DNA of 64,000 nt from Pantoea rodasii (lineage in GTDB: Bacteria > Pseudomonadota > Gammaproteobacteria > Enterobacterales > Enterobacteriaceae), in the NCBI RefSeq assembly GCF_002095465.1, contig NZ_MLFP01000010.1, forward strand, positions 1 to 64,000. Direction: 5' to 3'. The position numbers and the translations under genes were made by a program. How positions within the stretch are numbered: the stretch's first letter is position 1; every line of letters starts with the position of its first letter. Under the pieces are notes generated by a model. The model ran no database searches. It was not told the DNA's origin and saw only the letters and a list, made by a program, of their open reading frames with translations. Shown here in pieces: positions 4,503 to 40,626 of the stretch.

Positions 4503-7500
4503 TTATGCCACTGAAGGGTCGATCACCATAAGTAGTTGACCCGCCTGCACTTGCTGCCCGGCCTGGCGATAGAAACTATGGATTTTTCCACTGACTGGCG
4601 CCACGATCGGGATTTCCATCTTCATAGATTCGAGAATGCCTACCGTGGCGCCCGCTTCAATCTCACTGCCTTCATCAACCAACCATTGCCACACGCTGCC
4701 CGCCACCTGGCTCTCTACCGGGCTACACCCTGCAGGCACCGTAATCTCTTCAGTACTCTGTTCCTGCAGCTGACTGTCGAAGGTGAATTGCCCTTCTGCG
4801 CGCCAGCGTGCCAGTTCACTGTCAAAGGCCCGCTGTCGTTGCTGCTGGAAGGCGTCGATTTCCTCCGCCTGCGCCACCAGCATCGCCTGATAATCTGCGA
4901 GGCGGAATTCGCCCTCTTCGCTACGCAGCGGATAGTCACCCCACGGAAAACGCTCGCGAATGGTGAGTAGTTCCTCGGCGCTGACCGGATAAAAACGGAT
5001 TTGATCGAAGAAGCGCAGCAGCCACGGCTGAGTGAACGCCGGGGTTTGTCGATCGCGGTTCCACATCTGCATGGTGCGCCCGACAAACTGGTAGCCGCCC
5101 GGCCCTTCCATGCCGTATACGCACATATAGGCACCGCCAATGCCCACCGAGTTTTCCGCTGTCCAGGTGCGCGCTGGATTGTATTTGGTGGTCACCAGAC
5201 GATGGCGCGGATCGAGCGGCGTCGCCACTGGCGCTCCGAGATAGACATCGCCCAACCCCATCACCAGATAGGCGGCGCTGAACACGATCTCCTTCACCTC
5301 ATCAATGCTGGCCAGGCCATTGATGCGGCGGATAAATTCAATATTGCTGGGGCACCACGGCGCATTGGGGCGCACCGACTGACTGTATCGGGTGATAGCC
5401 TCACGACAGGCCGCATCGTCCCAACTGAGCGGTAACCATACGGTACGCGAGGGCACAGCGGCATCGCTGAGGTCGCCCAGCGCATGATCAATGTGCAAAA
5501 TTTGCGCCAACAGCTCACTTCTCACACAGTGTTGTGCGTCGTAGTGCACCTGCAGCGAACGGATGCCCGGCGTTAATTCCAGCTGTCCCGGCAGCGGATG
5601 GGCTTCCAGCTGTTGCATCAACGCGTGAACGCGAAAGCGCAGCGCGATATCTAGCATCAAATCGCCATATTCCACCAGCAGGAAGCGGTCACCTGCCGCG
5701 CGCACGCTGAGCGATGGACGACCATTTTCTGCTACCTGATGGTGCAATAGGGGATCAATAAGGGGCAGCGCCGCGTTCACTGTAAGCGGCGCTGATTGCA
5801 GTTTGATGATGGCTTCACGCTGCGCCTGTGCCAGTTGATCCGCACTGCTGAGATCGATCGGCAGGAAGCGCACGCGATCCCCTGCTTTGAGCTGGCCCAG
5901 CTTCCACAGATCGGCTTCGATCACCGTGGCCGGGCAGACGAATCCACCGAGTGAGGGGCCGTCCGGACCAAGGATCACCGGCATATCGCCGGTAAAATCC
6001 ACCGTGCCAAAGGCGTAGGCGTTGTCGTGAATATTGGAAGGATGCATGCCCGCTTCGCCACCATCGCTGCGCGCCCAGGTCGGTTTGGGGCCAATCAGGC
6101 GGATGCCGGTGCGGCTGGAGTTGTAGTGCACTTGCCACTCGGCGGCAAAGAACGCCTCGATGTCTTCATCGGTAAAGAAGGTTGGTGCACCGTGCGGGCC
6201 ATAAATCACCCGCAGCTGCCATTCGCCGTTGAGTTCAGGCACCAGCTCGGCGGGTAAGTCTGCCGTTGCCAGCACTTGCGGATCGGCAAGATGTAACACG
6301 TCGCCCGCACGCAAAGCGCGCCCGGCGTGGCCACCAAACCTACCGAGCGTAAAGGTGCTGCGGCTGCCGAGATAGCGCGGGGTATTCAAGCCGCCCGCCA
6401 GCAGCAGATAGCTGCGGCATCCTTCGCTCACATCGCCCAGCGTCAGGGTTTGCCCGGCCTGAGCGGTGACGATCTGATGCATCGTTAACGGCTGCTGATC
6501 CAGCTGCGCGGCAATCGGTGCGCCGGTTAACACAAAACTGCACGCCTGATTAACACGCAGCGTGGGGCCGCGCAGGGTGATCTCCAGTCCCGCCGCCTGC
6601 GGGTCGTTATTCAATAGGCGATTACCTAACTGGAACGCGCGGCTGTCAAACGGGCCAGACGGCGGCACGCCGACGTGCCAATAACCGACGCGGCCAGGCG
6701 CATCCTGCACCGTGGTTAAAGTGCCGCCGCTGAGGATATCCAGCGTTGGCGGCTGCCACTGCACGCCGCCCAGGGTGGCGGTGATGATGCGACCCTGCTG
6801 CACTTCCGGCAGTGAGCAAAGATGGCGCAACCACAGCAGATTGGTTTCGATGCCGTACAGCTCGGTGGCGTCCAGCGCCTGCGCCATGCTGTGCAATGCC
6901 ACCTCACGGCTGGCCGCATGCACAATCACCTTCGCCAGCATCGGATCGTAGAAAGGCGAAACCTCCATGCCAGTTTCCACGCTACTGTCGATGCGCAGCG
7001 TAGCGTTTTCACTCTCCGTCGGGAACTGGACGTGGCTGAGCAAACCGGCACTGGGCTGGAACTGTTTGGCCGGATCTTCGGCGTACAGCCGCACCTGAAT
7101 CGCATGGCCTTGCGCTTTGGTCGATAAGGTGTGAATCGGCGGCAACGTTTGCTGCGCCAGCTCCACCATCCAGCGTACCAAATCCACGCCGTATACCATT
7201 TCGGTGACGCCGTGTTCCACCTGCAAACGGGTGTTCACTTCAAGGAACCAGAACTGCTCGCTGGCATCATCGTAGACATACTCCACGGTGCCCGCGCTGC
7301 GGTAGTTGACGGCGCAGGCCAGCCTGACCGCCGTAGCCTGCAGTTCGGCGCGCACTGCCGCACTCAGCCCTGGCGCGGGTGTTTCTTCCAGCACTTTTTG
7401 GTTACGGCGCTGAGCGGAACAGTCACGCTCGCCAAGGGCAATCACATTGCCAGCACCATCGCCAAAGATCTGCACCTCAATGTGGCGCGCACGCGCGATA

Positions 7501-8102
7501 AACTTCTCTAAAAATACGCCATCGTCGGCGAAATTGTTTCCTGCCAGACGCTTCACACGGGTAAATGCGGCGTTGAGTTGTTCGGCATCGTCGCAGCGCT
7601 GCATACCAATGCCGCCGCCGCCGGCAGTACTTTTCAGCATCACCGGATAGCCAATCTTCTCTGCCATCACTCGCGCTTCGTCCAGCGAAGTCAGCAAACC
7701 ACTGCCCGGCAGCAGCGGCACCTGATTCTCCTGCGCCAGCGCACGCGCACGGTGTTTCAAACCGAACGCTGCCATCTGCCCGGCACTCGGGCCAAGGAAC
7801 TGCACGCCTGCCGCTTCACAGCGCGTCACAAACTCGGGATTTTCGCTGAGGAAACCGTAGCCCGGATGCACCGCCTGTGCCCCGCTCTGGGCGGCAATCT
7901 CCAGTATTTTTTGCTGATTGAGATAAGTGTCTCGCACCTGCCCCTCGCCCAGCGACCAGGCTTCATCGGCCAGACGCACATGCCGCGCGTGGCGATCGGC
8001 TTCGGCATACACCGCAATCGCGCGAATGTTCATGGCTTGCAGGGTACGGATAATGCGCACGGCAATCGCGCCACGGTTGGCAATCAATACGCGATCAATC
8101 AT
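4503..8102 (-). CDS. guanidine carboxylase (annotated elsewhere as urea carboxylase)
   Basis: Biotin-dependent carboxylase of 1199 residues, normal for the family. Order: biotin carboxylase/ATP-grasp (about 1-445, with GGGGIGMQ and ERDCSAQRRNQK), carboxyltransferase of KipA type (about 455-770, GYWHVGVPPSGPFD), KipI-type domain (about 815-1020) and a biotinyl domain ending the protein, with the biotinylated Lys in ESMKMEI near residue 1161. Enzymes of this architecture carboxylate urea or guanidine using ATP and bicarbonate. The guanidine-I riboswitch in the leader and the two DUF1989 partners point to guanidine, giving carboxyguanidine. Last gene of the operon. No allophanate hydrolase domain is fused or adjacent. 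The substrate is inferred. Confidence 0.88.
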   Translation of the reverse strand: MIDRVLIANRGAIAVRIIRTLQAMNIRAIAVYAEADRHARHVRLADEAWSLGEGQVRDTYLNQQKILEIAAQSGAQAVHPGYGFLSENPEFVTRCEAAGVQFLGPSAGQMAAFGLKHRARALAQENQVPLLPGSGLLTSLDEARVMAEKIGYPVMLKSTAGGGGIGMQRCDDAEQLNAAFTRVKRLAGNNFADDGVFLEKFIARARHIEVQIFGDGAGNVIALGERDCSAQRRNQKVLEETPAPGLSAAVRAELQATAVRLACAVNYRSAGTVEYVYDDASEQFWFLEVNTRLQVEHGVTEMVYGVDLVRWMVELAQQTLPPIHTLSTKAQGHAIQVRLYAEDPAKQFQPSAGLLSHVQFPTESENATLRIDSSVETGMEVSPFYDPMLAKVIVHAASREVALHSMAQALDATELYGIETNLLWLRHLCSLPEVQQGRIITATLGGVQWQPPTLDILSGGTLTTVQDAPGRVGYWHVGVPPSGPFDSRAFQLGNRLLNNDPQAAGLEITLRGPTLRVNQACSFVLTGAPIAAQLDQQPLTMHQIVTAQAGQTLTLGDVSEGCRSYLLLAGGLNTPRYLGSRSTFTLGRFGGHAGRALRAGDVLHLADPQVLATADLPAELVPELNGEWQLRVIYGPHGAPTFFTDEDIEAFFAAEWQVHYNSSRTGIRLIGPKPTWARSDGGEAGMHPSNIHDNAYAFGTVDFTGDMPVILGPDGPSLGGFVCPATVIEADLWKLGQLKAGDRVRFLPIDLSSADQLAQAQREAIIKLQSAPLTVNAALPLIDPLLHHQVAENGRPSLSVRAAGDRFLLVEYGDLMLDIALRFRVHALMQQLEAHPLPGQLELTPGIRSLQVHYDAQHCVRSELLAQILHIDHALGDLSDAAVPSRTVWLPLSWDDAACREAITRYSQSVRPNAPWCPSNIEFIRRINGLASIDEVKEIVFSAAYLVMGLGDVYLGAPVATPLDPRHRLVTTKYNPARTWTAENSVGIGGAYMCVYGMEGPGGYQFVGRTMQMWNRDRQTPAFTQPWLLRFFDQIRFYPVSAEELLTIRERFPWGDYPLRSEEGEFRLADYQAMLVAQAEEIDAFQQQRQRAFDSELARWRAEGQFTFDSQLQEQSTEEITVPAGCSPVESQVAGSVWQWLVDEGSEIEAGATVGILESMKMEIPIVAPVSGKIHSFYRQAGQQVQAGQLLMVIDPSVA

Positions 8103-8182
8103 GAGTGAAATCTCTTATTACGGCAGGTCGTCCTGCGTGGACAATGACGGCAAAAAACGGGTCGTCCCGTTGCGTCAAAGCA

Positions 8183-8818
8183 TCACCACACGCTGACTAA
8201 GATCGGCGTGGGGTTGTAACCGTTACAGGGATTGTTGAGCTGTGGGCAGTTGGAGATCAGCACCAGGATGTTCATCTGCGCCACCATCTCGACGTATTTG
8301 CCGGGAGCAGAAATGCCATCGGCGAAGGTCAAACCGCCATCGTGCGTCACCGGCACGTTCATAAAGAAGTTGATATTGTGAGTGATATCGCGACGCGTCA
8401 GGCCGAATTCCGGCTTCTCGGCCACCGCCAGCATCCAGCTGTCACGGCAGGAGTGCATATGGCGCTTCTCCAGATCGTAACGCACGGTGTTGCTCTCACA
8501 GGAACAGGCGCCGCCCAACGTATCGTGGCGACCACAGGTATCGGCGGTTATCGTCAGCATCGGACGATCTAAGTTGGAGCGCAGCACGCTGCCCGCGCTA
8601 AGGAACACATTCTTTTGCCCGCGCAGCGTATCGCTCATGCTGTAGCGCTCGGCGGTGTCATCGGCGTTGAAGAACAGGGTATCGGCAGCCTGATTACCTT
8701 CCAGATCGGTGATACGCAAGGTCTGGCCCGCTTCTATGCGCTGCAACCAGTAATCACCGGCGTTCACCTGCTGCTGGAATGGCGCTTCGGCGGGATTGAG
8801 TAAGCTTTCAGTGATCAT
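8183..8818 (-). CDS. carboxyguanidine deiminase subunit, DUF1989 (UAAP2-like)
   Basis: 211 residues of the DUF1989 family once called urea amidolyase-associated protein. In the guanidine pathway two such proteins form a deiminase that converts carboxyguanidine to allophanate and ammonia. Conserved metal-type residues include GACSCESN, MHSCRD and the C-terminal NPCNGYNPTP. The start at 8818 is chosen because AAGGAG lies eight bases upstream and the ATG overlaps the previous stop by one base (TAATG); a start 72 bases upstream would lie inside the neighbour. The gap to the carboxylase is 80 bases. Which of the two paralogues is catalytic cannot be read here. Confidence 0.85.
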   Translation of the reverse strand: MITESLLNPAEAPFQQQVNAGDYWLQRIEAGQTLRITDLEGNQAADTLFFNADDTAERYSMSDTLRGQKNVFLSAGSVLRSNLDRPMLTITADTCGRHDTLGGACSCESNTVRYDLEKRHMHSCRDSWMLAVAEKPEFGLTRRDITHNINFFMNVPVTHDGGLTFADGISAPGKYVEMVAQMNILVLISNCPQLNNPCNGYNPTPILVSVW

Positions 8819-9525
8819 TAGATTTCTCCTTGCAGCTGATAGAGCGCGTTGTTGCGCAGGCCGCGCTGGTTTTCTTCGCGCGCCAGGCAAATTTCCGGCA
8901 GTGGCGCACGCTGGGCGTCCAGTGCGAGCTGCACCGGCTGGCGCGGATATTCGCTGCTGGCATTCAGCGGATGCGGGCAGGTGTGCAGCATCACCAGCGT
9001 ATCCATGGCAAAGCGCAGTCGCACCTGTGCACCCGGCGCACCCTGCTGTTCCAGTTGCAGCGTACCGTTATCATCGGCGCGCACCCTGGCAAACAGGTTG
9101 AGGCAAGAGGCCATATCACGCGGGCCGAGGCCGTATTTCGCCAGCTCGACGAGGAAACTGTCGTAGCCGTTTTGATGACGCAGATTGCGCGCTTGCTGAT
9201 AGTCGCTGGCGCCGAAACGTGCGGCAGTTTGCTCCGCATTTAAGGTGCCGCAGACGCTCTCATGCCAGCCGAAGCTGTCTTCTTCGATACCGCAGAAAAT
9301 GCGTCCCATATCGGAATAAAGGCAATGCCCGGCCGTCAGGCGGAAGGTGTGCTGGCACTTCAAGGTATCGGGCGCGTTGTAGCGCTCCAGCAGATTTTCC
9401 GGGTTGTAGAACAGCATGCCGACGTTGGCACCGCCTTCGATATCGGTCAGCGTCAGCGCCGTGCCGCTGCGCATCACCAGCGACCAGTGCGATCCCGCCG
9501 GTAACAGGGTTTGATAGGCATTCAT
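8818..9525 (-). CDS. carboxyguanidine deiminase subunit, DUF1989 (UAAP1-like)
   Basis: 235 residues, paralogous to the next gene and of the same DUF1989 family. Recognisable parts are TLTDIEGGANVGMLFYNPEN near the N-terminus, FGWHESVCGTL in the middle and LHTCPHPLNAS near the C-terminus. AAAGGAG stands seven bases before the ATG. It follows the transporter ATPase gene by 11 bases and is translationally coupled to the second DUF1989 gene. Together they are the expected deiminase that acts after guanidine carboxylase. Confidence 0.84.
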   Translation of the reverse strand: MNAYQTLLPAGSHWSLVMRSGTALTLTDIEGGANVGMLFYNPENLLERYNAPDTLKCQHTFRLTAGHCLYSDMGRIFCGIEEDSFGWHESVCGTLNAEQTAARFGASDYQQARNLRHQNGYDSFLVELAKYGLGPRDMASCLNLFARVRADDNGTLQLEQQGAPGAQVRLRFAMDTLVMLHTCPHPLNASSEYPRQPVQLALDAQRAPLPEICLAREENQRGLRNNALYQLQGEI

Positions 9526-9536
9526 AAAGTGCTCCT

Positions 9537-10298
9537 TTAAGCCACCTGCGGCTCAGACGGCAGCGCAGCATCAGGCTGTGTGCGATCCAGCGGCAGGTCG
9601 TAAGTGATAGTGGCGCCCCAGGCTTCCGGCGCGTGCGGGTCATGACGCAGTTTGTCGAACACCAGCAGGCGCGAGGCCAGGCTGAAGCCCTCTTTCAGGT
9701 CATGCGTGATCATAAAAATGGTCAGGTTATGCTGCTGCCACAGGCGGGTAATCAGCTGGTGCATCTCGCTGCGAATACCAGGATCGAGCGCCCCAAAGGG
9801 TTCATCGAGCAGCAGGATGCGCGGCTGTTTCATCAGCGCCTGCGCCAGCGCCAAACGCTGCTGCATACCGCCCGAGAGCTGATGCGGGTATTTGCTTTGC
9901 GCGTGCTCCAGGCCAACCTGCGCCAGCATTTCCTGCGCACGCAGACGAATCGCCTGGCGCTTTTTGCCCCACACGCGTCCCAGCCAGCGGGCGCTGCTGA
10001 ACTCTTCCGCCAGCATCACGTTGCCGAGCACCGTCAGATGGGGAAACACCGAGTAGCGCTGAAACACCACGCCGCGATGGGCATCGGGCTCATCGGGGAT
10101 GGGTTCGCCGTCCAGCAGCAGTTGGCCTTTAGTTGGCGATTCGGTGCCGAGCAGCATGTTGAGGAAGGTGGTTTTGCCGCAGCCGGATGCCCCGACAATC
10201 GCCACAAACTCGCCCTGCTCGACGTTGATGTTAAGACGTTCCAGCACCACCTGATCGCCGTAATGCTTTTCGAGGTTTTTCAGTTGCAGTAATGGCAT
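9537..10298 (-). CDS. ABC transporter ATP-binding protein (guanidine operon)
   Basis: 253 residues of the SsuB/TauB type. Walker A GASGCGKTT, signature LSGGMQQRLALAQA, Walker B ILLLDEPFG and the H-loop MITHDL are all visible. The start at 10298 (MPLLQLKNLEKHYG) follows CAGGAG at seven bases. An ATG 18 bases upstream and longer out-of-family extensions are rejected. It powers the permease and binding protein encoded upstream, importing the substrate that the carboxylase uses. Confidence 0.9.
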   Translation of the reverse strand: MPLLQLKNLEKHYGDQVVLERLNINVEQGEFVAIVGASGCGKTTFLNMLLGTESPTKGQLLLDGEPIPDEPDAHRGVVFQRYSVFPHLTVLGNVMLAEEFSSARWLGRVWGKKRQAIRLRAQEMLAQVGLEHAQSKYPHQLSGGMQQRLALAQALMKQPRILLLDEPFGALDPGIRSEMHQLITRLWQQHNLTIFMITHDLKEGFSLASRLLVFDKLRHDPHAPEAWGATITYDLPLDRTQPDAALPSEPQVA

Positions 10299-10312
10299 GG
10301 TTCGCTCCTGAA

Positions 10313-11125
10313 TCATTTCGCGTGATACCACGGCCAGCAGCGACGGCTGATCAGCCGCAGCAACAGGTCGAGCACAAAGGCCAGCAGCGCGATCCACGCC
10401 ACGTACGGCAAAATCACATCCATCGCCAGATAACGGCGCATCAGGAAGATGCGGTAACCCAGCCCTTCGGTGGCGGCAATCGCTTCGGCAGCAATCAGGA
10501 ACAGCCACGCCGACGCCAGCGACAGGCGCACCGCATCCAGCAGGCGCGGCATCATCTGCGGCAGGATCACGCGCCACAAAATCTGCGCGCTGTGCCCACC
10601 GAGCGTCTGCGCTTTCACCAGCTGCTCGCGCGGGATTTTCTCCACCTGCAGCTGCAAATCGCGCGCAATCAGCGGAGTAATGCCAATCACGATCAGCACC
10701 ACTTTCGACACTTCGCCGAGGCCAAAGCAGATAAACAGAATCGGCAGAATCGCCAGCGGAGGCACCAGCGCCACCACCGTCACCAGCGGCGCCAGCACCG
10801 CGCGCACCACCGGTAACGCACCGGTGAACAGGCCAATCGCCAGCGCCAGCAGCGCGCTGATCGCCACGCCGCTCAGCAGACGCATCAGGCTGGCGGCGGT
10901 GTCGGTCCACAGCAGATATTCGCCGGTACGCGGGCTGGGCTGAAACGCCATGCGACTGATGGCGTCCCCCATCGCGTTAAACCCCGGCAACAGTTTGTCT
11001 GCGGCATTCAGGCTGAGACGCGCATCCGACGCGAACAGATAGACCAGCAGCAGCGCCAGCAGCGGCAGGATGCCAAGCAGCAGGCGACCGAGCGGCAGCG
11101 GTTGGTAGTTGATCAATTTACGCAT
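10313..11125 (-). CDS. ABC transporter permease (guanidine operon)
   Basis: About 270 residues of the BPD_transp_1/SsuC-like family. An N-terminal membrane segment is followed by a large loop and roughly five further helices. The permease-ATPase coupling loop is seen around EQLVKAQTLGGHSAQILWRV. Two ATGs lie six bases apart. The second (11125) is eight bases from the GAGG site while the first (11131) is only two, so 11125 is preferred. The gap to the binding-protein gene is short. Confidence 0.87.
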   Translation of the reverse strand: MRKLINYQPLPLGRLLLGILPLLALLLVYLFASDARLSLNAADKLLPGFNAMGDAISRMAFQPSPRTGEYLLWTDTAASLMRLLSGVAISALLALAIGLFTGALPVVRAVLAPLVTVVALVPPLAILPILFICFGLGEVSKVVLIVIGITPLIARDLQLQVEKIPREQLVKAQTLGGHSAQILWRVILPQMMPRLLDAVRLSLASAWLFLIAAEAIAATEGLGYRIFLMRRYLAMDVILPYVAWIALLAFVLDLLLRLISRRCWPWYHAK

Positions 11126-11139
11126 CGGCATCGCCTCGC

Positions 11140-12198
11140 TTAGAGCTGACCCGCAGCGGCCAGCTTGGTGTACTCATCGGTGAAGCGCAGTTTCAGGTTG
11201 TTGGTATCGCCCCAATTACCGGCTGGCGTTTCCACGCCCACCACATCGGCGCTCGGTGCCCCTTCGCCCAATAAACCGTGCTTGAAGGAGAACTCCGCAA
11301 CCAGCTGCATGGTGGCTTTCAGCTGTGGGCTATCGACAAAATCGAGGGTGGTTTTGGCATCGCTGAACAGGTGGGTGGCGGCCAGTTGCTGTTCGAAGCC
11401 CGCCAGATCGGTGCCAGAAGCCTGCGCCATTTGGGTGCGGGCGGCTTTGGCGCTGTCACTCGCGCCGGACATGGTTTTCAGGGTTTCATACCAGGCTCCG
11501 GTCAGGGCTTTGCCGAGCTGAGGATACTTTTTCAGCGTGGCGGTGTTCACCACCAGCAAATCGAGGATTTCGCCCGGAATCTGGGCGGAAGAGAAGACTA
11601 AATGGCTATCCGGTTGTTTTTCCGCTTCGGCCAGCAATGGGTTCCAGGTGACGATCGAGTGCACGTCAGACGTACCGAACGCCGCCACCAGATCGGCATC
11701 GGCGGTGTTGACCACTTTGACATCTTTCTCGCTCATGCCGGATTTCTCCAGCGCACGTGCCAGCAGATAATGAGAGACCGAGAGTTCGACCAGATTGATG
11801 GGCTTGCCTTTCAGCGAGGCAATGTTGCCTTTGCCTTTGAGCAGAATGCCGTCATTACCGTTGGAGTAGTCGCCGACAATCAGCGCAGTGCTGTCCACGC
11901 CGCCGGTGGCAGGAATGGTTAGGGCATCCATGTTGGTCATGGTGCAGCCGTCAAAGCCCCCGGCGGTGTACTGATTCACCGATTCGATGTAATCGTTGAC
12001 CTGCACAAACTGGATATCGACGCCGTATTTATCGGCCCATTTTTTGACGATGCCGCTCTGCTGGGCGTAATCCCACGGCATCCAGCCCGCGTAAATGGAC
12101 CAACAGATCTTAAAGGAGGGTTTGTCGGCGGCCAGCGTATTAACGCTGAACAGCGCGACGGTGCAAAGCAACAGCAAGCGAAGGCAGGCTTTGATCAT
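11140..12198 (-). CDS. periplasmic substrate-binding protein, NMT1/SsuA type (guanidine/urea-carboxylase region)
   Basis: 352 residues. The N-terminus MIKACLRLLLLCTVALFSV ending in TLAADKP is a typical Sec signal peptide. The mature part (FKICWSIYAGWMPWDYAQQ) belongs to the NMT1/THI5-like solute-binding proteins that accompany urea/guanidine carboxylases. AGAGGA precedes the ATG at 12198. The frame stays open for 71 codons further upstream, but that stretch is the riboswitch and its terminator and is not coding. First gene of the operon. The ligand is inferred, not shown. Confidence 0.88.
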   Translation of the reverse strand: MIKACLRLLLLCTVALFSVNTLAADKPSFKICWSIYAGWMPWDYAQQSGIVKKWADKYGVDIQFVQVNDYIESVNQYTAGGFDGCTMTNMDALTIPATGGVDSTALIVGDYSNGNDGILLKGKGNIASLKGKPINLVELSVSHYLLARALEKSGMSEKDVKVVNTADADLVAAFGTSDVHSIVTWNPLLAEAEKQPDSHLVFSSAQIPGEILDLLVVNTATLKKYPQLGKALTGAWYETLKTMSGASDSAKAARTQMAQASGTDLAGFEQQLAATHLFSDAKTTLDFVDSPQLKATMQLVAEFSFKHGLLGEGAPSADVVGVETPAGNWGDTNNLKLRFTDEYTKLAAAGQL

Positions 12199-12223
12199 GA
12201 TGGTTCCTCTGACGTTAACGGGC

Positions 12224-12268
12224 GAAAAAAAGCAGGAGGCGGCGAGCAACGATCTCGCTTTCCTCCCG
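12224..12268 (-). terminator. riboswitch expression-platform terminator
   Basis: On the minus strand GGAGG (12262-12266) and GCGAG (12254-12258) pair with CTCGC (12242-12246) and CCTCC (12235-12239), followed by seven T (12225-12231). The 5' strand of this hairpin overlaps the 3' strand of the aptamer. Ligand binding should therefore prevent terminator formation and turn expression on. Confidence 0.85.
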
Positions 12269-12355
12269 GGCTTTTTTCCCGCCGTGTAACCGTCAGAGGA
12301 CGGTCGGTCACTCTCGGACCAGCATCTTTCGACCGGAACCCTAGTGACCCATTGC
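12256..12355 (-). ncRNA. guanidine-I riboswitch (ykkC class) aptamer
   Basis: Read on the minus strand, conserved blocks of the guanidine-I motif appear in the correct order: CTAGGGTTCCGG (12333-12344), GCTGGTCCGAGAG (12311-12323), ACACGGCGGGA (12277-12287) and AAAGCCCGGGAGG (12262-12274). These are the hallmark elements of ykkC RNAs. Its place 60 bases before an ABC transporter, DUF1989 and carboxylase operon matches the known gene associations. Predicted to sense free guanidine and antiterminate. Confidence 0.93.
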
Positions 12356-12410
12356 AAATTGTCTGGCGACGTCGGTTGCCCGCTATCGCTCCTGCATCTG
12401 CTTAAACACA

Positions 12411-12427
12411 TTCAAAAAAAGTGCCAA
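12411..12427 (-). promoter_or_regulatory. possible sigma-54 promoter of the guanidine operon
   Basis: On the minus strand TTGGCAC, five T and TTGAA resemble a -24/-12 sigma-54 promoter (TGGCAC-N5-TTGCA). The -24 box is perfect but the -12 box has A for the usual C. It would start transcription about 45 bases before the aptamer. The region further up (12481-12560) holds several GGTGC/GCACC-like half sites, for example TGGTGCAC at 12487 and GTGCACCA at 12510, that could bind NtrC. Tentative. Confidence 0.35.
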
Positions 12428-12763: not shown

Positions 12764-13482
12764 ATGAGTCACACGTCAGATAGCGCCCGCAATTCCAGTT
12801 CCGCTTTGGAGCAGCTACGTCAACTGATCCAGCAACAGGAGCAGCAGCCGCATCACGCGTTGCCCACAGAGCGCGAACTGGCGGAGCGCTTTGGCGTCGG
12901 ACGCCGTGAGATCCGTCGCGCCCTCGACGTGCTGGAAGAGGAAGGACGCATCTGGCGCAAACAAGGCAAAGGCACCTTTGTTGGCCCTGCTGCACCGGTG
13001 CAGCCGCTGGCGTTGCACGATCTGCCGCAGCAGTCGAACCTGCTGGAAGTGATGGAAGCGCGTTTGCAACTGGAGCCAGGATTGGCACGACTGGCCGCCC
13101 TGCGCGCCAGTAAAGAGCAGATTGCACTGATGAAGCGCCTGCTGGAACGGATGAATGGCATCACGGCACCGGAGGATGGCGACCAGCACGAACTGTGGGA
13201 CAGCGCCTTTCATCGTGCCATCGCTGAAGCCGCCGGGAATCGCCTGATGCTGGGATTGTTCGACGCCGTGGATGCAGTGCGCCGCGATCCGGGTTGGCAG
13301 CATCTGCGCGTGCAGGCGCGCACGCCCGCTCGCCTCAACAACTATGACGACCATCACCAGCGCCTGGTGAATCACATCGCGCAACGCCAGCCGCATGAAG
13401 CCGCTGCCGCGATGCGCGAACACTTAATGGCACTGCAACAGGCGCTGCTTGAAGCGCTCTACAGCCATCAGGAGGAGACGCC

Positions 13483-13486
<4 letters not shown>
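12764..13486 (+). CDS. GntR-family (FadR/FCD) transcriptional regulator
   Basis: 240 residues. The N-terminal winged helix (LPTERELAERFGVGRREIRR, then RALDVLEEEGRIWRKQGKGT) fills about residues 33-75. The C-terminal FCD ligand-binding domain shows the metal-type acidic and His residues (DSAFHRAIAEAAGN, YDDHHQRL, REHLMAL). The ribosome site is weak (AGGCG). Its stop overlaps the next start by four bases (ATGA), so it is the first gene of the transporter/GGT operon and the obvious regulator of it. The likely effector is the imported amino-acid or peptide derivative. Confidence 0.9.
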
Positions 13487-14474
<988 letters not shown>

Positions 14475-14478
<4 letters not shown>

Positions 14479-15535
14479 AACCGATTTTAGAGTGCCGCGA
14501 TTTAAGCAAACCTTTGCCGGGCCGAACCGCCTGTTTAAGCGCAATCGCGGCGTCACCGCAGTCGATCGTGTGTCGTTGCAGGTGATGCCGGGCGAAACGC
14601 TGGCGATTGTTGGCGAATCGGGGTCGGGTAAATCGACCCTCGGCCGTTTGCTGTTACGCCTGCTGGCGGCCAGTGCCGGAGACGTGTTTTATCAGGGCGA
14701 AAGCATTACCGATGCCAGCGGCGCACGCCTGAATCAACTGCGCCGCGAACTGCAAATCATCTTTCAGGACCCCTTTGCCTCACTGAATCCGCGCATGACG
14801 GTGCAACAGATTGTCGGCGAGCCGCTGTGGCTGCACGAAAAGCTGAGCCGGGAAGCACGCCATGCGCGCGTTGCTGAATTACTGCGCACCGTGGGTTTAC
14901 CGGCAGCCTGGGCGGAGCGTTATCCGCATGAGTTTTCCGGCGGTCAGCGTCAGCGTATTGGTATCGCCCGCGCCCTCGCCTCTCAGCCCAAACTGCTGCT
15001 GGGCGATGAGCCGGTTTCCGCCCTGGACGTTTCGGTGCAGGCGCAGGTGGTGAACTTACTGGAGAGCCTCAAACAGCAGTTTGGCCTGACGATGATCATC
15101 GTGGCGCACGGTCTGGCAGTGATTCGCCATATGAGCGATCGCGTGGCGGTGATGTACCTCGGGCAAATCGTGGAAGTTGCCACCGTGGACGAGATTTTTG
15201 ACGCGCCGCTGCATCCGTACACTCAGGCGCTGATCGCCTCCGCGCCGCAGATGCAGCCGGGAGCCAACCGCCAGATTCCGATGTTGCAGGGCGATCTGCC
15301 CAATCCTGCCCATCCGCCCACTGGATGCCGTTTTCACACCCGCTGCCCTTGGGCGACAGCGGATTGCCGTCAGTTTGAACCGATTAACCAGGTGCTGAGC
15401 GGTGGCCGCCAGATTGCCTGTCATCGCTGGCAGGAGATTAACCGCGATCGCAGCGTCATCGTTATTGCACCGCCTTCTGCCGCCTTTTTACGTCGCCGCG
15501 CGCTGTTTGAGCAGGCGGTCAAGCAACAAGCCTAA
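14475..15535 (+). pseudogene. peptide-type ABC transporter ATP-binding protein (DppF-like), frameshifted as read
   Basis: The expected protein starts at ATG 14475 (MKPILECRDLSK), overlapping the upstream stop. After codon 12 the frame changes: AAA at 14508-14510 must be AAAA for the family sequence TFAGPNRLFKRN to continue. From there the frame is intact to 15535 with Walker A GESGSGKST, signature FSGGQRQRIGIARA and the C-terminal Cys-rich tail (GCRFHTRCPWA). Reconstructed length is about 353 residues. A single missing A, as in other genes of this window, is more likely a sequencing error than loss of function. In Walker B (LLLGDEPVSALD) Gly replaces a hydrophobic residue. Confidence 0.85.
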
Positions 15536-15553
15536 CCCTCTGGAGATTCGCCT

Positions 15554-17071
15554 GTGAAGAAAGCTCGATTAACCTTACTCACGGCCTTAAGCGGCCTGCT
15601 CTTGCTCGGTGCCAGTGCACGCAGTCAGGCGGAAAGCGTGATTCGTATTGGCTTGGGTGCCGACCCGGACATGCTGGATCCACATCTGGCGCGCACTTAT
15701 TACGGTCGTTTTGTGTTTGCTGCCATGTGTGATCGTCTGGTGGATGTGGATGAGAACCTCAAAGTGGTGCCCGGCCTGGCAACAGATTGGGCATGGAGCG
15801 ACGATGGCAAAACCCTGACCATGAATCTGCGCGATGGCGTGACCTTCCAGGATGGCGAGAAGTTTGATGCCAACGCGGTGAAGTTCAATATCGAGCGCGC
15901 ACTGACTCTGCCAGGCTCGCTGCGTAAAAGCGAAATCTCTTCCATTGAAAGCGTGGAAGTGAGCGGTCCGATGCAGGTGAAGTTCCACCTGAAAACGCCG
16001 GATGCGGCGCTGCTCAGCCAGCTCACCGACCGCGCTGGCGCGATGCTGGCACCGGAAGCGGCCAAAAAACCGGGCTTCGCGACGCATCCGGTCTGCTCCG
16101 GCCCGTATCAGTTTGCCAGCCGCGTGCAGCAGGATCGTATCGTGCTGACGCGCTTTGAAAACTACTGGAACAAAAGCGCTTACCACTTCGATAAAGTGAT
16201 TTTTCTGCCGATCCCGGATGCCTCGGTGCGACTCGCCAACCTGCGCGCAGGCGATCTCGACCTGACGGAAGGCGTGGCGGCCAGCGATGTGAAAACCGTG
16301 GAGGCCGACAGCAAACTGGCGCTGTCCAAGGTTACCGGTCTCGGTTATCAGGGCATCACCTTCAACATCAATAACGGCAAGGTGGACGCGAACAGTCCGC
16401 TGAAAGATCCGCGCGTACGTGAAGCCTTCTCGCTGGCGATTGATCGCGACGCGCTGAATCAGGTGGCGTTTGAAGGCTTTTATACCCCATCCAATCAGGC
16501 TTTCTCGCCGGTCAGTGCCTATCACGTCAACACACCCATCAGCACACGCGATGTGGAAAAAGCCAAAGCGCTGCTGAAGGCGGCGGGTGTGACCACGCCG
16601 CTCAATCTGACGCTGTTGGTGACCAATAACCCAACGGCACAGCAGGTCGGCCAGGTGATTCAGGCGATGGTCGGTGAAGCGGGCATTAATCTCAATTTGC
16701 AGATGAGTGAGTTCGCCAGCTTGCTGGACCGCCAGCAGCGCGGTGATTACCAACTCAGCTTATCTGGCTGGTCCGGCCGCCCCGATCCCGATGGCAGCAT
16801 CTACTCGTTTATTAACAGCAAAGGCACGCTCAACGACGGTCGCTACAGCAATCCACAGGTTGATGAGTGGCTGAACGCCGCACGCCTCAGCAACGATCAG
16901 GCGCAGCGTCAGGCGCTGTACACCAAGGTGGTGAATCAGCTGCAAACCGATATGCCGATTGCCTATCTCTACTTCGAGCCACGCATCTTTGGCATGACGA
17001 AAAAACTGCAGGGCTTTAAAGCCTGGCCTGATGGTCTGGTACGCCTCGCGGGTGTGAGCATGGCGCAGTAA
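15554..17071 (+). CDS. periplasmic peptide/opine-type substrate-binding protein (SBP_bac_5)
   Basis: 505 residues. A signal peptide of about 26 residues ends in ARSQA. The mature protein has the SBP_bac_5 pattern: IGLGADPDMLDPHLAR, the LRDGVTFQDGEKFDANAVKF segment and FSLAIDRDALNQ. No lipobox is seen, so it is a soluble periplasmic receptor. It follows the ATPase gene by 18 bases. It may deliver glutathione or gamma-glutamyl compounds, judged only from the enzyme at the operon end. Confidence 0.9.
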   Translation: MKKARLTLLTALSGLLLLGASARSQAESVIRIGLGADPDMLDPHLARTYYGRFVFAAMCDRLVDVDENLKVVPGLATDWAWSDDGKTLTMNLRDGVTFQDGEKFDANAVKFNIERALTLPGSLRKSEISSIESVEVSGPMQVKFHLKTPDAALLSQLTDRAGAMLAPEAAKKPGFATHPVCSGPYQFASRVQQDRIVLTRFENYWNKSAYHFDKVIFLPIPDASVRLANLRAGDLDLTEGVAASDVKTVEADSKLALSKVTGLGYQGITFNINNGKVDANSPLKDPRVREAFSLAIDRDALNQVAFEGFYTPSNQAFSPVSAYHVNTPISTRDVEKAKALLKAAGVTTPLNLTLLVTNNPTAQQVGQVIQAMVGEAGINLNLQMSEFASLLDRQQRGDYQLSLSGWSGRPDPDGSIYSFINSKGTLNDGRYSNPQVDEWLNAARLSNDQAQRQALYTKVVNQLQTDMPIAYLYFEPRIFGMTKKLQGFKAWPDGLVRLAGVSMAQ

Positions 17072-17088
17072 ACCGCTGAGGAGCGATG

Positions 17089-18030
17089 ATGCTGGAACTG
17101 ATAGTTAAACGCTTACTGCTGGCGATCCCCACGCTGCTGCTGGTGAGCATCATGGTGTTTGCGCTGCAAAAGCTGCTGCCGGGCGATCCGGTGCTGGCGA
17201 TGGCGGGCGAGGAGCGCGATCCCGCGGTCATCACGCAGCTGCGGGCGGAATATCACCTGGATGATCCGATTCCCACACAATACTTCTCGTGGATTGGTAA
17301 TGCGCTGAAGGGCGATTTAGGCATGTCACTGCGCACCAAAGAGCCGGTGACCTCGCTGATCGCCAGCAAGTTGCCGGTGACGCTGGAGCTGTCGCTGCTG
17401 GCAATGGTGATTGCGCTAGGTATTGGCATCAGCATGGGCATTATCGCGGCGGTGCGCAAAGACACCTGGGTCGATCACACCACCAACTTTGTCGCGCTCT
17501 CCGGCATATCGGTGCCGCATTTCTGGCTGGGTATTCTGCTGATCCTGCTGTTTTCCGTGCATCTGCAATGGCTGCCGGCCTCCGGCTTTGTGCCCATCAG
17601 TGAAGATGTGGCGCAGAACCTGAAAACCCTGCTGCTGCCGGCGTTGGTGCTGGGTACCGGCCTCGCCGCTACCTTGATGCGCCATACGCGGGCGTCAATG
17701 ATCAGCGTGCTGAAGGCCGATTACATCCGCACCGCGCGCGCCAAAGGTTTGCTGGCCCCCAAAGTGGTGCTGAAGCACGCCTTCCGTAACGCGCTGATGC
17801 CGATCGTCACGCTCACCACCTTACTGTTTGGTGAGTTGCTGGGCGGTGCGGTGTTAACTGAGCAGGTTTTCACGCTGCCCGGCTTCGGCAAGATGATTGT
17901 CGATGCGGTGTTTAACCGTGATTACGCGGTGGTTCAGGGCGTGGTGCTGGTGGTGGCGATCGGCTTTCTGCTGCTGAACCTGCTGGCGGATGTGCTCTAT
18001 CTGTTAATCAACCCGAAAATGCGAGGCTAA
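17089..18030 (+). CDS. peptide-type ABC transporter permease (DppB-like)
   Basis: About 313 residues with six predicted membrane segments. The N-terminal LLLVSIMVFALQKLLPGDPV is the family hallmark, and the coupling loop TARAKGLLAPKVVLKHAFRN is clear. Two adjacent ATGs occur (17086, 17089). The second has the better distance to GAGGAG, so it is used. It is followed two bases later by the second permease. Confidence 0.92.
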   Translation: MLELIVKRLLLAIPTLLLVSIMVFALQKLLPGDPVLAMAGEERDPAVITQLRAEYHLDDPIPTQYFSWIGNALKGDLGMSLRTKEPVTSLIASKLPVTLELSLLAMVIALGIGISMGIIAAVRKDTWVDHTTNFVALSGISVPHFWLGILLILLFSVHLQWLPASGFVPISEDVAQNLKTLLLPALVLGTGLAATLMRHTRASMISVLKADYIRTARAKGLLAPKVVLKHAFRNALMPIVTLTTLLFGELLGGAVLTEQVFTLPGFGKMIVDAVFNRDYAVVQGVVLVVAIGFLLLNLLADVLYLLINPKMRG

Positions 18031-18032
18031 CC

Positions 18033-18914
18033 ATGAGCGAGGTGTTAACAGCAGGTGCAGTGCCAGCGGTCGCCAAGCCCAACCGCCGGGTGCTGAAGAA
18101 ATTTCTGCGCAATAAGAGTGCGCTGATCGGCGCAGTGATCGTGCTGCTGTTTGTTGCCGTGGCGCTGCTGGCGCCCTGGCTGGCACCGGCCGATCCGATC
18201 AAGGCGAACTTCCTTGCCGTGCGCAAAGCCCCTTCCGCGCTGTTCTGGTTGGGTACCGATGAGCTGGGCCGCGATATTCTGTCGCGTCTGATTTGGGGTG
18301 CGCGCACTTCACTGCTGGCGGGCTGCATCTCCGTGATGATTGCCATTTTGATTGGCGTGCCGCTGGGCCTGATCGCCGGTTACTGGCAGGGCTGGTGCGA
18401 TGGCATTATCTCGCGCTTTATCGAGGCGCTGCTCGCTTGTCCGTTTCTGATTCTGGCGATTGCGCTGGGTGCCTTCCTTGGGCCGAGCTTATCCAATGCA
18501 ATGATAGCGATTGGGCTTTCCGCCATGCCCATCTTTGCTCGCCTGACGCGCGGTCAGGTGATTGCTATCCGCCATGAAGAGTATATCGACGGGGCACGCG
18601 CCATCGGGCTGCCAGACCGCTGGATCATCCTGCGTTATGTGCTGCCCAACGTGCTGTCACCGATTCTGGTGCAGGCCACGCTGGCGATTGCCTCGGCGAT
18701 CATCACTGAAGCCAGCTTGTCATTTCTCGGCCTGGGCCAGCAGCCGCCGTCACCTTCCTGGGGCGCGATGCTGAACACCGCTAAAGGCTATCTGGAGCAG
18801 GCGCCATGGATGTCAATTTTCCCTGGGCTGGCGATTTTTCTCACTGTGCAGGGCTTCAATCTGCTGGGTGACGGACTGCGCGACGCGCTTGATCCGCGCA
18901 ATGACTCACATTAA
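18033..18914 (+). CDS. peptide-type ABC transporter permease (DppC-like)
   Basis: 293 residues. The sequence has a cytoplasmic N-terminus, a first helix around residues 36-55, the DppC-type HWLGTDELGRD-like block (WLGTDELGRDILSRLIWGAR) and five further helices. The coupling loop is EYIDGARAIGLPDRWIILR. It partners the DppB-like protein to form the channel. The next gene follows after nine bases. Confidence 0.92.
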   Translation: MSEVLTAGAVPAVAKPNRRVLKKFLRNKSALIGAVIVLLFVAVALLAPWLAPADPIKANFLAVRKAPSALFWLGTDELGRDILSRLIWGARTSLLAGCISVMIAILIGVPLGLIAGYWQGWCDGIISRFIEALLACPFLILAIALGAFLGPSLSNAMIAIGLSAMPIFARLTRGQVIAIRHEEYIDGARAIGLPDRWIILRYVLPNVLSPILVQATLAIASAIITEASLSFLGLGQQPPSPSWGAMLNTAKGYLEQAPWMSIFPGLAIFLTVQGFNLLGDGLRDALDPRNDSH

Positions 18915-18923
18915 GGAACCGTT

Positions 18924-20522
18924 ATGAGCGATTTGGATTTCAACGTTAGCTATGCCTCGCACCGCGCCCCGATGATGGGCCGCAATGCAGTCGCGACGTC
19001 TCAGCCGCTGGCGGCACAGGCGGGCATGCGCATGTTGCAACAGGGCGGTAATGCGGTAGACGCGGCGATTGCTACTGCGATGGCGCTCACCGTGCTGGAA
19101 CCGACCGGCAACGGCATTGGCAGCGATGCGTTTGCCATTATCTGGGATGGCAAAGAACTGCACGGCTTAAATGCCTCGGGCCGTTCCCCTGCCAGCTGGA
19201 ATGCAGAACGCTTTGCCGGACAGAGCACGATGCCGGAGATCGGTTGGGAAGCGGTGACCGTGCCGGGTGCGGTTTCTGCCTGGATCACACTGGCGGAACG
19301 CTTTGCCACCTTACCGCTGACCACGCTGGCGCAACCGGCCATCGAATATGCGCGTGACGGCTTTCCGGTTTCGCCGCTGATCGCCCATCTGTGGCAGCGC
19401 GGCTACAACAAACTGAAATCCCAACCGGGCTTTATTGAGTGTTTTGCGCCGGACGGCCGCCCGCCGCGTGCCGGTGAACTGTTCCGCAACCCGGCGCAGG
19501 CCGCCACGCTGCAGAAAATCGCCGAAACCAACGGAGAAACCTTCTATCGGGGTGAACTGGCCGAGAAAATGGTGGCATTTGCCGAGCAGCACGGCGCAGC
19601 GCTGAGCATGGCCGATCTCAACAACCACCGCGCCGACTGGGTAGATCTGTTATCACGTCCGTTTGCCGACGGCTCGGTGCAGGAATTGCCGCCCAACGGC
19701 CAGGGCATCGCCACCTTAATTGCGCTGGGTATTCTGGAGCAGTGGGACATCGGCAGCTACACGCCGGATTCCGTGCCGTGGCTTCATCTGTCGTTCGAAG
19801 CGATGAAGCTGGCGCTGGCCGATCTGGATCGTTACGTCACCGATTACGACCATCTCGAGTTCCCGGCGGAGCTGCTGCTGAGTGACAGCTACCTCAAGCA
19901 GCGTGCTCATCTGATCAATCCTGACCAGGCCGGGGATTTTACCTTCGGCTCACCGCAGCAGAGCGGCACCGTTTACCTCTCCACCGCCGATGCCAGCGGC
20001 ATGATGGTGTCGTTTATTCAGTCCAACTATATGGGCTTTGGTTCGGGCGTGGTGGTGCCAGGCACCGGCATTAGCTTGCAGAACCGCGGCTGCGGCTTCT
20101 CGCTCGATCCACAGCATCCGAACGTGGTGGCCGGCAGCAAACGTCCGTTCCACACCATTATTCCGGCATTTGCGCTGGATGCGGCGGGACAACCCTTGAT
20201 GTCGTTTGGCGTGATGGGCGGCCCGATGCAGGCTCAGGGCCATCTGCAGCTGGCGTTACGCATCATGCAGCACAAGCAAAATCCGCAAGCAGCGATTGAT
20301 GCGCCGCGCTGGCGCGTGGAGCAAGGCCGCGCGGTGGTGGTGGAACCGGGTATCGATCGTAACGTGCTGGCGAAACTGCGCGAGATGGGTCACCAGATTA
20401 CGGTGGAAGATCCGTTACAGAGCTACAACTTCGGAGGAGCGCAGGCGATTGTGCGCGATCCGCAGGGCTTCTATATTGCCGCCACTGAAAGCCGCAAGGA
20501 TGGACAGGCGCTGGTGTTTTAA
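18924..20522 (+). CDS. gamma-glutamyltransferase-family protein (cytoplasmic Ntn-hydrolase)
   Basis: 532 residues of the GGT superfamily, a proenzyme that self-cleaves before a Thr. The N-terminal block GGNAVDAAIATAMALTVLEP and the predicted nucleophile Thr at about residue 349 in SGTVYLSTAD, aligned with TTHYSVVD of E. coli GGT, are visible. No signal peptide is present, so it acts in the cytoplasm, unlike E. coli periplasmic Ggt. This subfamily (YwrD/HpxW-like) includes amidohydrolases such as oxamate amidohydrolase, so the substrate may not be glutathione. Last gene of the operon, presumably acting on what the transporter imports. Confidence 0.85.
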   Translation: MSDLDFNVSYASHRAPMMGRNAVATSQPLAAQAGMRMLQQGGNAVDAAIATAMALTVLEPTGNGIGSDAFAIIWDGKELHGLNASGRSPASWNAERFAGQSTMPEIGWEAVTVPGAVSAWITLAERFATLPLTTLAQPAIEYARDGFPVSPLIAHLWQRGYNKLKSQPGFIECFAPDGRPPRAGELFRNPAQAATLQKIAETNGETFYRGELAEKMVAFAEQHGAALSMADLNNHRADWVDLLSRPFADGSVQELPPNGQGIATLIALGILEQWDIGSYTPDSVPWLHLSFEAMKLALADLDRYVTDYDHLEFPAELLLSDSYLKQRAHLINPDQAGDFTFGSPQQSGTVYLSTADASGMMVSFIQSNYMGFGSGVVVPGTGISLQNRGCGFSLDPQHPNVVAGSKRPFHTIIPAFALDAAGQPLMSFGVMGGPMQAQGHLQLALRIMQHKQNPQAAIDAPRWRVEQGRAVVVEPGIDRNVLAKLREMGHQITVEDPLQSYNFGGAQAIVRDPQGFYIAATESRKDGQALVF

Positions 20523-37433: not shown

Positions 37434-37578
37434 TTTGCTCGCCTCGGACAACAACCACATTAAAGCAGTGGTATTATTTCGCTGCTATTCTCACACTATT
37501 AGTTGGGTCATTGTGAACCTCGGCCCAACGCATCGCAAAACTAAAAAATGTGAAGTCATGTCGACTCAAGGATTAACC

Positions 37579-40500: not shown

Positions 40501-40626
40501 CACTGGGGTTATCAGGGCATTGCCAAGAAAGGCTTTATCGCCAATACCCTGACGCCGTTTGTCGGTGATGCCAACACGCAAACGCCGGAGTTTAAGGCGT
40601 TCCTGGTCAATGTTGAGAAGGTGTAG
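37579..40626 (+). CDS. fdoG: formate dehydrogenase-O major subunit FdoG (selenoprotein)
   Basis: 1015 residues, E. coli FdoG 1016. Oxidises formate in the periplasm and feeds electrons to quinone. A twin-arginine signal MNVSRRKFFKICAGGMAG starts at 37579 behind AAGGA. A [4Fe-4S] site (CTYCSVGCG, and CPKG) follows. Codon 196 is TGA (38164-38166) in the context NQARV-U-HGPTVASL, exactly the E. coli Sec196. The frame resumes without shift to 40626. It must therefore be read as one selenoprotein gene, not two fragments. First gene of fdoGHI-fdhE. Confidence 0.97.
38164..38204 (+). promoter_or_regulatory. bacterial SECIS element of fdoG
   Basis: Directly after the UGA codon a hairpin forms: GG, a bulged U, AGC, loop AAGUCUU, GCU, CC (178-195 within 38 kb). 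The bulged U and the GUCU in the loop are the SelB-recognition features known from the E. coli fdhF and fdnG elements. Confidence 0.85.

Follow-up and report, generated by a model that had tools for sequence, protein, structure and literature searches.

Does an operon whose genes are all named for urea serve guanidine instead? The question is raised by a stretch of DNA from Pantoea rodasii (64,000 nucleotides, positions 1 to 64,000 of contig NZ_MLFP01000010.1, assembly GCF_002095465.1; called here the window), in which a leader and then six genes run on the minus strand from 12427 to 4503. A preliminary description of this DNA, drawn up without database searches, had read the leader as a guanidine-I riboswitch and the operon as one for guanidine assimilation, and had guessed that automatic annotation would say urea; the NCBIfam families TIGR02712, TIGR03424, TIGR03425 and TIGR03427 found here are indeed all so named. 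We are highly confident that the operon serves the assimilation of guanidine nitrogen. It also contains a second switch, of the guanidine-II class, which is absent from that earlier account. The operon with both switch classes and its role in guanidine use are already published, and the window operon adds a member; as operons of this sort are already accepted as serving guanidine rather than urea, the value of this locus lies in its details.

Guanidine or urea as the substrate

The sixth gene (4503..8102, minus strand) encodes a biotin-dependent carboxylase of 1199 residues with carboxyltransferase domains CT_A_B and CT_C_D (the KipA/KipI kind), an amidase domain not being among those listed, and it matches TIGR02712, the NCBIfam urea carboxylase, with 1789 bits against a cut-off of 1304. 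Guanidine carboxylases are defined by Asp at positions 1584 and 1330 of the K. lactis enzyme, of which 1330 separates them from urea carboxylases (PMC11410670). In the alignment with 5i8i and 3va7, D702 of the window enzyme (TIGR02712 position 701) stands opposite N1330 of the K. lactis enzyme, while its GLGDVYLG stands opposite GLGDVFLG of 3va7, the Asp of which was assigned to 1584 by counting, the printed alignment rows ending there. Because Asp at the specificity site marks guanidine carboxylases, the operon is read as a guanidine operon and not as a urea operon.

The same residue divides the related loci, 80 of which were compared (L115, with broken frames, was excluded from the carboxylase comparisons and from the tree). 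Asp is present in all 56 carboxylases with DUF1989 genes beside them and Asn in all 24 without such genes, which provides a simple rule for re-annotation; 55 of the 56 show both DUF1989 genes, and the contig of the other (L018) begins inside the region. On a tree of 53 rows, made by a quick method from a subset of the loci and returned with a warning that some long branches meet, the Asp and Asn types fall on either side of one branch with an SH-aLRT of 100, and the window carboxylase belongs to a clade of 21 rows together with rows of Pantoea, Erwinia and Franconibacter.

The gene set named in the preliminary description, an NMT1-type ABC importer, two DUF1989 proteins and a KipA/KipI-type carboxylase, was recovered in full by family profiles. 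Behind the leader, all on the minus strand, come the periplasmic substrate-binding protein (SBP) of the importer (11140..12198; PF09084 (NMT1) and TIGR03427, "putative urea"), the ABC permease (10313..11131; PF00528), the ABC ATPase (9537..10298; PF00005) and the DUF1989 proteins UAAP1 (8818..9525; TIGR03425, 285 bits) and UAAP2 (8183..8818; TIGR03424, 324 bits), both above the cut-off and both of PF09347. This pair adjoins the carboxylase, as is expected of CgdAB, and its members would be the two subunits of carboxyguanidine deiminase. The gene after the end of the carboxylase (4503) encodes a helix-turn-helix (HTH) regulator at 4260-3964.

It could be argued that this is nevertheless a urea-assimilation operon, with a urea carboxylase and a urea importer, and that guanidine is merely its inducer. 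All four NCBIfam names speak for this and, as a point that counts against our reading, an enzyme of TIGR02712 may have some activity on urea. The proposal seems most improbable to us, however, since the specificity residue is Asp rather than Asn, both riboswitches are of guanidine classes, the genome has another carboxylase of the Asn type accompanied by AtzF and UrtABCDE, and a review ascribes the genes adjoining the carboxylase to carboxyguanidine (PMC12186494). Taken with the strong covariance match of the leader (see below), the Asp residue and the separate Asn-type carboxylase support, at the level of sequence, the reading as guanidine assimilation with which the preliminary description started. 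It is also very unlikely that the importer and the pathway serve a larger guanidino compound (e.g., methylguanidine), with guanidine as an intermediate: the guanidine-II switch of Vreelandella boliviensis does bind methylguanidine as well (PMC12508155), but the published pathway has mgdH and mgdL behind the carboxylase, where the HTH regulator follows here (the two genes were looked for at this place only, not in the remainder of the genome).

Two guanidine switches in one operon

A covariance search, which the preliminary description had suggested as a check, found the guanidine-I (ykkC) aptamer at full length (12261..12355, minus strand; 81.3 bits where the gathering score of RF00442 is 63, with an E value of 6.4e-13), and this is the single RF00442 match in the genome assembly of 5.75 Mb. 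The terminator that had been described as overlapping the 3' strand of the aptamer is present at 12225..12267 (minus strand), where it was seen only by direct folding, the generic terminator scan giving no match at this place. Its hairpin, with an energy of −15.3 to −16.4 kcal/mol, starts with GGGAGG at 12267, still within the aptamer's 3' end, and has CCUCCU as its closing strand, after which comes U7; the 5' arm of the terminator and the 3' strand of the aptamer overlap, in the mutually exclusive arrangement of the guanidine-I class. A set of 42 leaders was compared (from 41 loci, as L014 and L119 are the same, and many of them related), of which 30 were folded from a start set at GGGAG by script, the other 12, with the aptamer core off the pattern, being omitted. 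At least five U within 10 nt after the hairpin were found in 27 of the 30 (the exceptions are L096, L098 and L105), and the hairpin of L110 differs in shape.

The guanidine-II (mini-ykkC) element (8123..8173, minus strand; RF01068) is situated between the stop of the second DUF1989 gene and the start of the carboxylase (8102), 20 nt ahead of that start. It consists of the two ACGR-loop hairpins of its class, P1 at 8171-8156 and P2 at 8136-8123, with a possible outer helix at 8177-8173/8149-8145, and reaches 34.5 bits, the gathering score being 32 (the E value is 0.0035 for the window and 7.5e-5 for the genome search, where it is the sole RF01068 match). The operon has therefore the published two-switch layout, i.e., guanidine-I at the operon start and guanidine-II ahead of the carboxylase.

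The conservation of this layout was followed in a family sample of 198 genomes and a class sample of 369 genomes, the window being counted in both and both being searched with strict filters that lose weak matches. In the family sample, 27 of 31 guanidine-I matches are followed on the same strand by guanidine-II, at a distance of 4.1-4.35 kb. The four unpaired ones include G165, with a sub-threshold guanidine-II of 28.6 bits at the expected place, and G141, in which the P1 loop is altered and no Rfam guanidine-II match was obtained up to E 0.5; the remaining two guanidine-I matches are below the cut-off, and operon genes were not found in the 10 kb examined at these places. Outside the family sample, the Rfam models found both classes in 12 of the 13 named loci that belong to the window's clade (in G207, one of these 12, guanidine-II reaches 31.3 bits, just below the cut-off), and in the thirteenth, L012, both switches were found by pattern alone. 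In the class sample, a guanidine-II partner lies 3.3-5.1 kb downstream of 11 of the 38 guanidine-I matches.

Three observations on the second switch weigh against our reading. Its score in the window is barely above the cut-off and weak if taken alone; in the class sample 27 of the 38 guanidine-I matches stand without guanidine-II, which means that beyond the family the two are by no means generally paired; and the way in which guanidine-II controls the carboxylase is not visible here, because complementarity between the linker and the Shine-Dalgarno sequence does not exceed that of shuffled sequences. A linker anti-Shine-Dalgarno that sequesters the ribosome site is the platform proposed for E. 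coli sugE (PMC9094411, PMC9300104), and it is not part of the Rfam definition of RF01068. By a crude test on 27 clade rows (L014 and L119 being one locus), the mean pairing is 9.3 against 10.7 in shuffles. In a second clade, as a group, it is 10.6 against 10.9 (11 of 14 loci parsed, three being dropped where P1 was not recognised), though single loci of that clade, L103 and L104, do show such pairing. Judged by these sequences, the linker model is not supported for guanidine-II in the clade of the window, a finding that we did not find in the literature searched.

It could be argued that guanidine-II is a decayed relic without effect on the carboxylase, as its score is near the cut-off, the linker pairing was not found and G141 has a changed P1 loop and gives no Rfam match. 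We consider this unlikely, as the two ACGR-loop hairpins were found by pattern in the window and in all 13 named clade loci, P2 is identical save for the loop purine across 26 aligned clade loci, and the position of the element is conserved over the family. A functional switch is the reading that we prefer, and its platform may work in some way other than by a linker anti-Shine-Dalgarno, because P2 is invariant save for the loop purine and P1 is often enclosed by a possible outer helix of differing sequence. That helix is UGACG/CGUCA in the window and GGCGC/GCGCC, GACGC/GCGUC or GCGUG/CACGC in relatives, with a mean of 13.2 against 10.3 in shuffles (p < 0.05 singly in only 3 of the 27 rows), which no more than suggests pairing that is kept in several relatives while the sequence varies. 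P1 with the U run (window 8177-8145) was also considered as an internal terminator and rejected, the U run being restricted to the closest relatives.

Some side observations concern the distribution of the switches. In L126 (5905-11858, from the genome of L054, a Pseudomonas sp. metagenome-assembled genome), three guanidine switches occur in one cluster, namely two guanidine-I elements, each directly ahead of a separate SBP gene, and one guanidine-II element ahead of the carboxylase. The genes for importer, DUF1989 proteins, carboxylase and AtzF are present in all 20 Sphingomonadales genomes searched (among L016-L049), and neither guanidine-I nor guanidine-II was matched in them. L100 (G146), from the same genus as the window, has an operon of the other clade with a carboxylase 60% identical; the operon may thus have been exchanged horizontally.

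Remote allophanate hydrolase and possible nitrogen control

An allophanate hydrolase gene was not found behind the window carboxylase, although atzF in the same operon is described in the two published accounts of such operons consulted here; we did not take it as defining, as the enzyme may come from elsewhere. The only AtzF of the genome above the cut-off, an open frame, is on contig C7 in the order atzF-carboxylase-GntR-urtABCDE. The C7 carboxylase is a homologous biotin-dependent enzyme (its two pieces are 49% and 62% identical) which differs from that of the window by Asn at the specificity site, i.e., it is the urea version; DUF1989 genes were not found there, the importer is another one, and neither guanidine-I nor guanidine-II is matched. 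As a side observation, this urea-type carboxylase (L095 6473-10089) is divided between two frames that overlap near residue 242. The match runs through without a break in the 19 other clade genomes in which one was found, and the split is either an assembly error or a recent pseudogene.

The remote position is the rule in the clade. The check covered 25 genome entries (G099 and G208 are identical in all coordinates, and the genome of L012 was left out), and each of the 24 other distinct clade genomes has one AtzF above the cut-off. With the window included, atzF lies outside the guanidine operon in 24 of 25 genomes and in a urea operon in 20 of 25; in G057, G184, G087 and G097 it is beside the GntR gene of the urea operon, with a urea carboxylase not found there, and in G141 alone it is directly behind the guanidine carboxylase. 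The carboxylase counts agree, being two in the 20 genomes and one in each of these five (the AtzF match of G184 is shorter, 2-492 of 563). The five fall into three lineages of the tree (G097, G057 and G184; G087; G141), and G115, which has both carboxylases, separates G141 from G087. The retention of atzF without a urea carboxylase may be best explained by allophanate formed from guanidine, and the four genomes with atzF beside the GntR gene offer a natural test of a last step supplied in trans. The remote single atzF and its retention without the urea carboxylase may be new, as neither was found in the literature searched, although subscription papers may hold them.

The second clade (14 rows) has atzF directly behind the carboxylase in six rows; in the other eight it was not seen within 1.1-1.25 kb behind the carboxylase, nor in G009, G151 and G103 within 9.0, 9.2 and 8.4 kb, respectively. 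Operons without atzF occur therefore in the second clade too, and the trait is not peculiar to the clade of the window; it may be commoner than the published accounts consulted suggest. Six second-clade genomes were counted for carboxylases, with two in G009, G151, G103, G146 and G076 and one in G153, where atzF adjoins the single carboxylase.

A further level of control is suggested by the region upstream of guanidine-I. The sigma54 consensus is GG-N10-GC in a TGGCA/TGC context, and NtrC sites are palindromic. Every one of the 42 leaders has TGG(C/T)A-N6-TTG(A/C/T) between −47 and −71 relative to the aptamer (0.4 expected from shuffles), and the stricter (C/T)TGG(C/T)A-N6-(C/T)TGC, which contains GG-N10-GC, occurs in 30 (0.18 expected), the pattern having been framed after inspection of the same leaders. 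The best NtrC-like palindrome has a mean of 1.98 mismatches in the leaders against 3.63 in shuffles, and near-perfect sites are found in some second-clade loci, e.g., AGCACCAGCATGGTGCA in L107. Nitrogen control of the operon by sigma54 and NtrC is on these patterns likely in the family.

For the window's own genome such control is uncertain. The promoter-like element there (12411..12427, minus strand) reads TTGGCAC-N5-TTGAA and was found with the relaxed pattern only, the strict one having failed, as the GC at −12 is replaced by GA (GG-N10-GA); GA or GT stands at this place in the window and in eight close relatives. The NtrC-like match of the window has 3 mismatches where shuffles have 3.5, so that it is hardly above chance, and both facts count against nitrogen control here. 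Among the papers listed by the literature searches, none was found that joins a sigma54-type promoter to guanidine operons, although subscription papers may hold one, and a word search for NtrC in the accessible text of PMC12508155 and PMC12186494 gave no mention. If real, such a promoter would make the use of guanidine depend on nitrogen limitation in addition to the ligand.

The mechanism that we propose is as follows. The ABC importer would take up guanidine, the biotin carboxylase would convert it to carboxyguanidine, the two DUF1989 subunits would deiminate this to allophanate, and AtzF from the separate urea operon on contig C7 would hydrolyse allophanate, presumably acting in trans. One mRNA would sense guanidine twice: guanidine bound to guanidine-I would block formation of the terminator and let the operon be transcribed, and guanidine bound to guanidine-II would raise carboxylase expression, presumably at translation, while in relatives nitrogen limitation, through sigma54 and NtrC, would probably gate transcription. 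Both aptamers, the terminator overlap, the gene families, the Asp residue and the single remote atzF can be read in the DNA itself; ligand binding, the direction of switching and the enzyme activities are taken from published relatives. Two switch classes for one ligand on one mRNA could be tested as serial gates. To generalise, the Enterobacterales pathway may be both triply gated and split, with a sigma54/NtrC promoter that opens under nitrogen limitation only, followed by guanidine-I and then guanidine-II, and with AtzF as a shared hub from the urea operon, a lone atzF being kept for guanidine alone where the urea carboxylase was lost; we regard the chances of this whole scheme as evenly balanced.

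Neighbouring genes and published relatives

On the plus strand at 12764-20522, the window contains a divergent GntR/FCD regulator, a peptide-type ABC importer and a gamma-glutamyltranspeptidase (GGT). The GntR-opp genes among them were rejected as a part of the system, since they adjoin the operon in 9 of the 13 named clade loci and in none of 31 others; L004 has a GGT gene in place of them, and L115 gave one partial oppD match. Three of four SMR matches (G000, L091-L094) were scanned for a SugE/Gdx exporter and are below the SugE cut-off, being Qac/EmrE-like, MdtI and MdtJ, while the fourth overlaps the MdtJ match in another frame and was outside the scan. Elsewhere in the window, a SECIS_3 element (38161-38219, plus strand, 83.4 bits) lies within 37435-40626 between two open reading frames whose starts are 780 nt apart in the same frame; the site is likely a selenocysteine UGA, and we take the gene to be probably formate dehydrogenase.

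As regards published switches, the statement that tandem guanidine switches do not occur (PMC9481103) refers to switches stacked before one gene, and the operon layout does not contradict it; tandems of a T-box with a guanidine switch (PMC12452182) are unlike the present layout. In published relatives guanidine-I relieves termination, and the proposal for guanidine-II is that it makes the ribosome site accessible. The layout with two classes is "like in several other bacteria" (PMC12508155).

The two closest published systems were compared by description. The operon of Vreelandella boliviensis (Sinn et al. 2025, PMC12508155), whose switches were probed in vitro with apparent KD values for guanidine of 44 and 93 micromolar and whose host grows on guanidine and methylguanidine, resembles the window operon in the 5' guanidine-I, in a guanidine-II that comes after the cgd genes and ahead of the guanidine carboxylase, in the ABC importer and in the two deiminase subunits, but it includes mgdH, mgdL and atzF as well, and the window carboxylase is followed by none of these. 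Raoultella, Klebsiella and Erwinia strains with such an operon grow on guanidine (PMC12186494), and Raoultella terrigena, Klebsiella michiganensis and Erwinia rhapontici likewise have guanidine-I before the importer and deiminase genes and guanidine-II before the carboxylase; in these three species, however, allophanate hydrolase is encoded with the carboxylase behind guanidine-II, whereas the atzF of the window's genome belongs to a remote urea operon.

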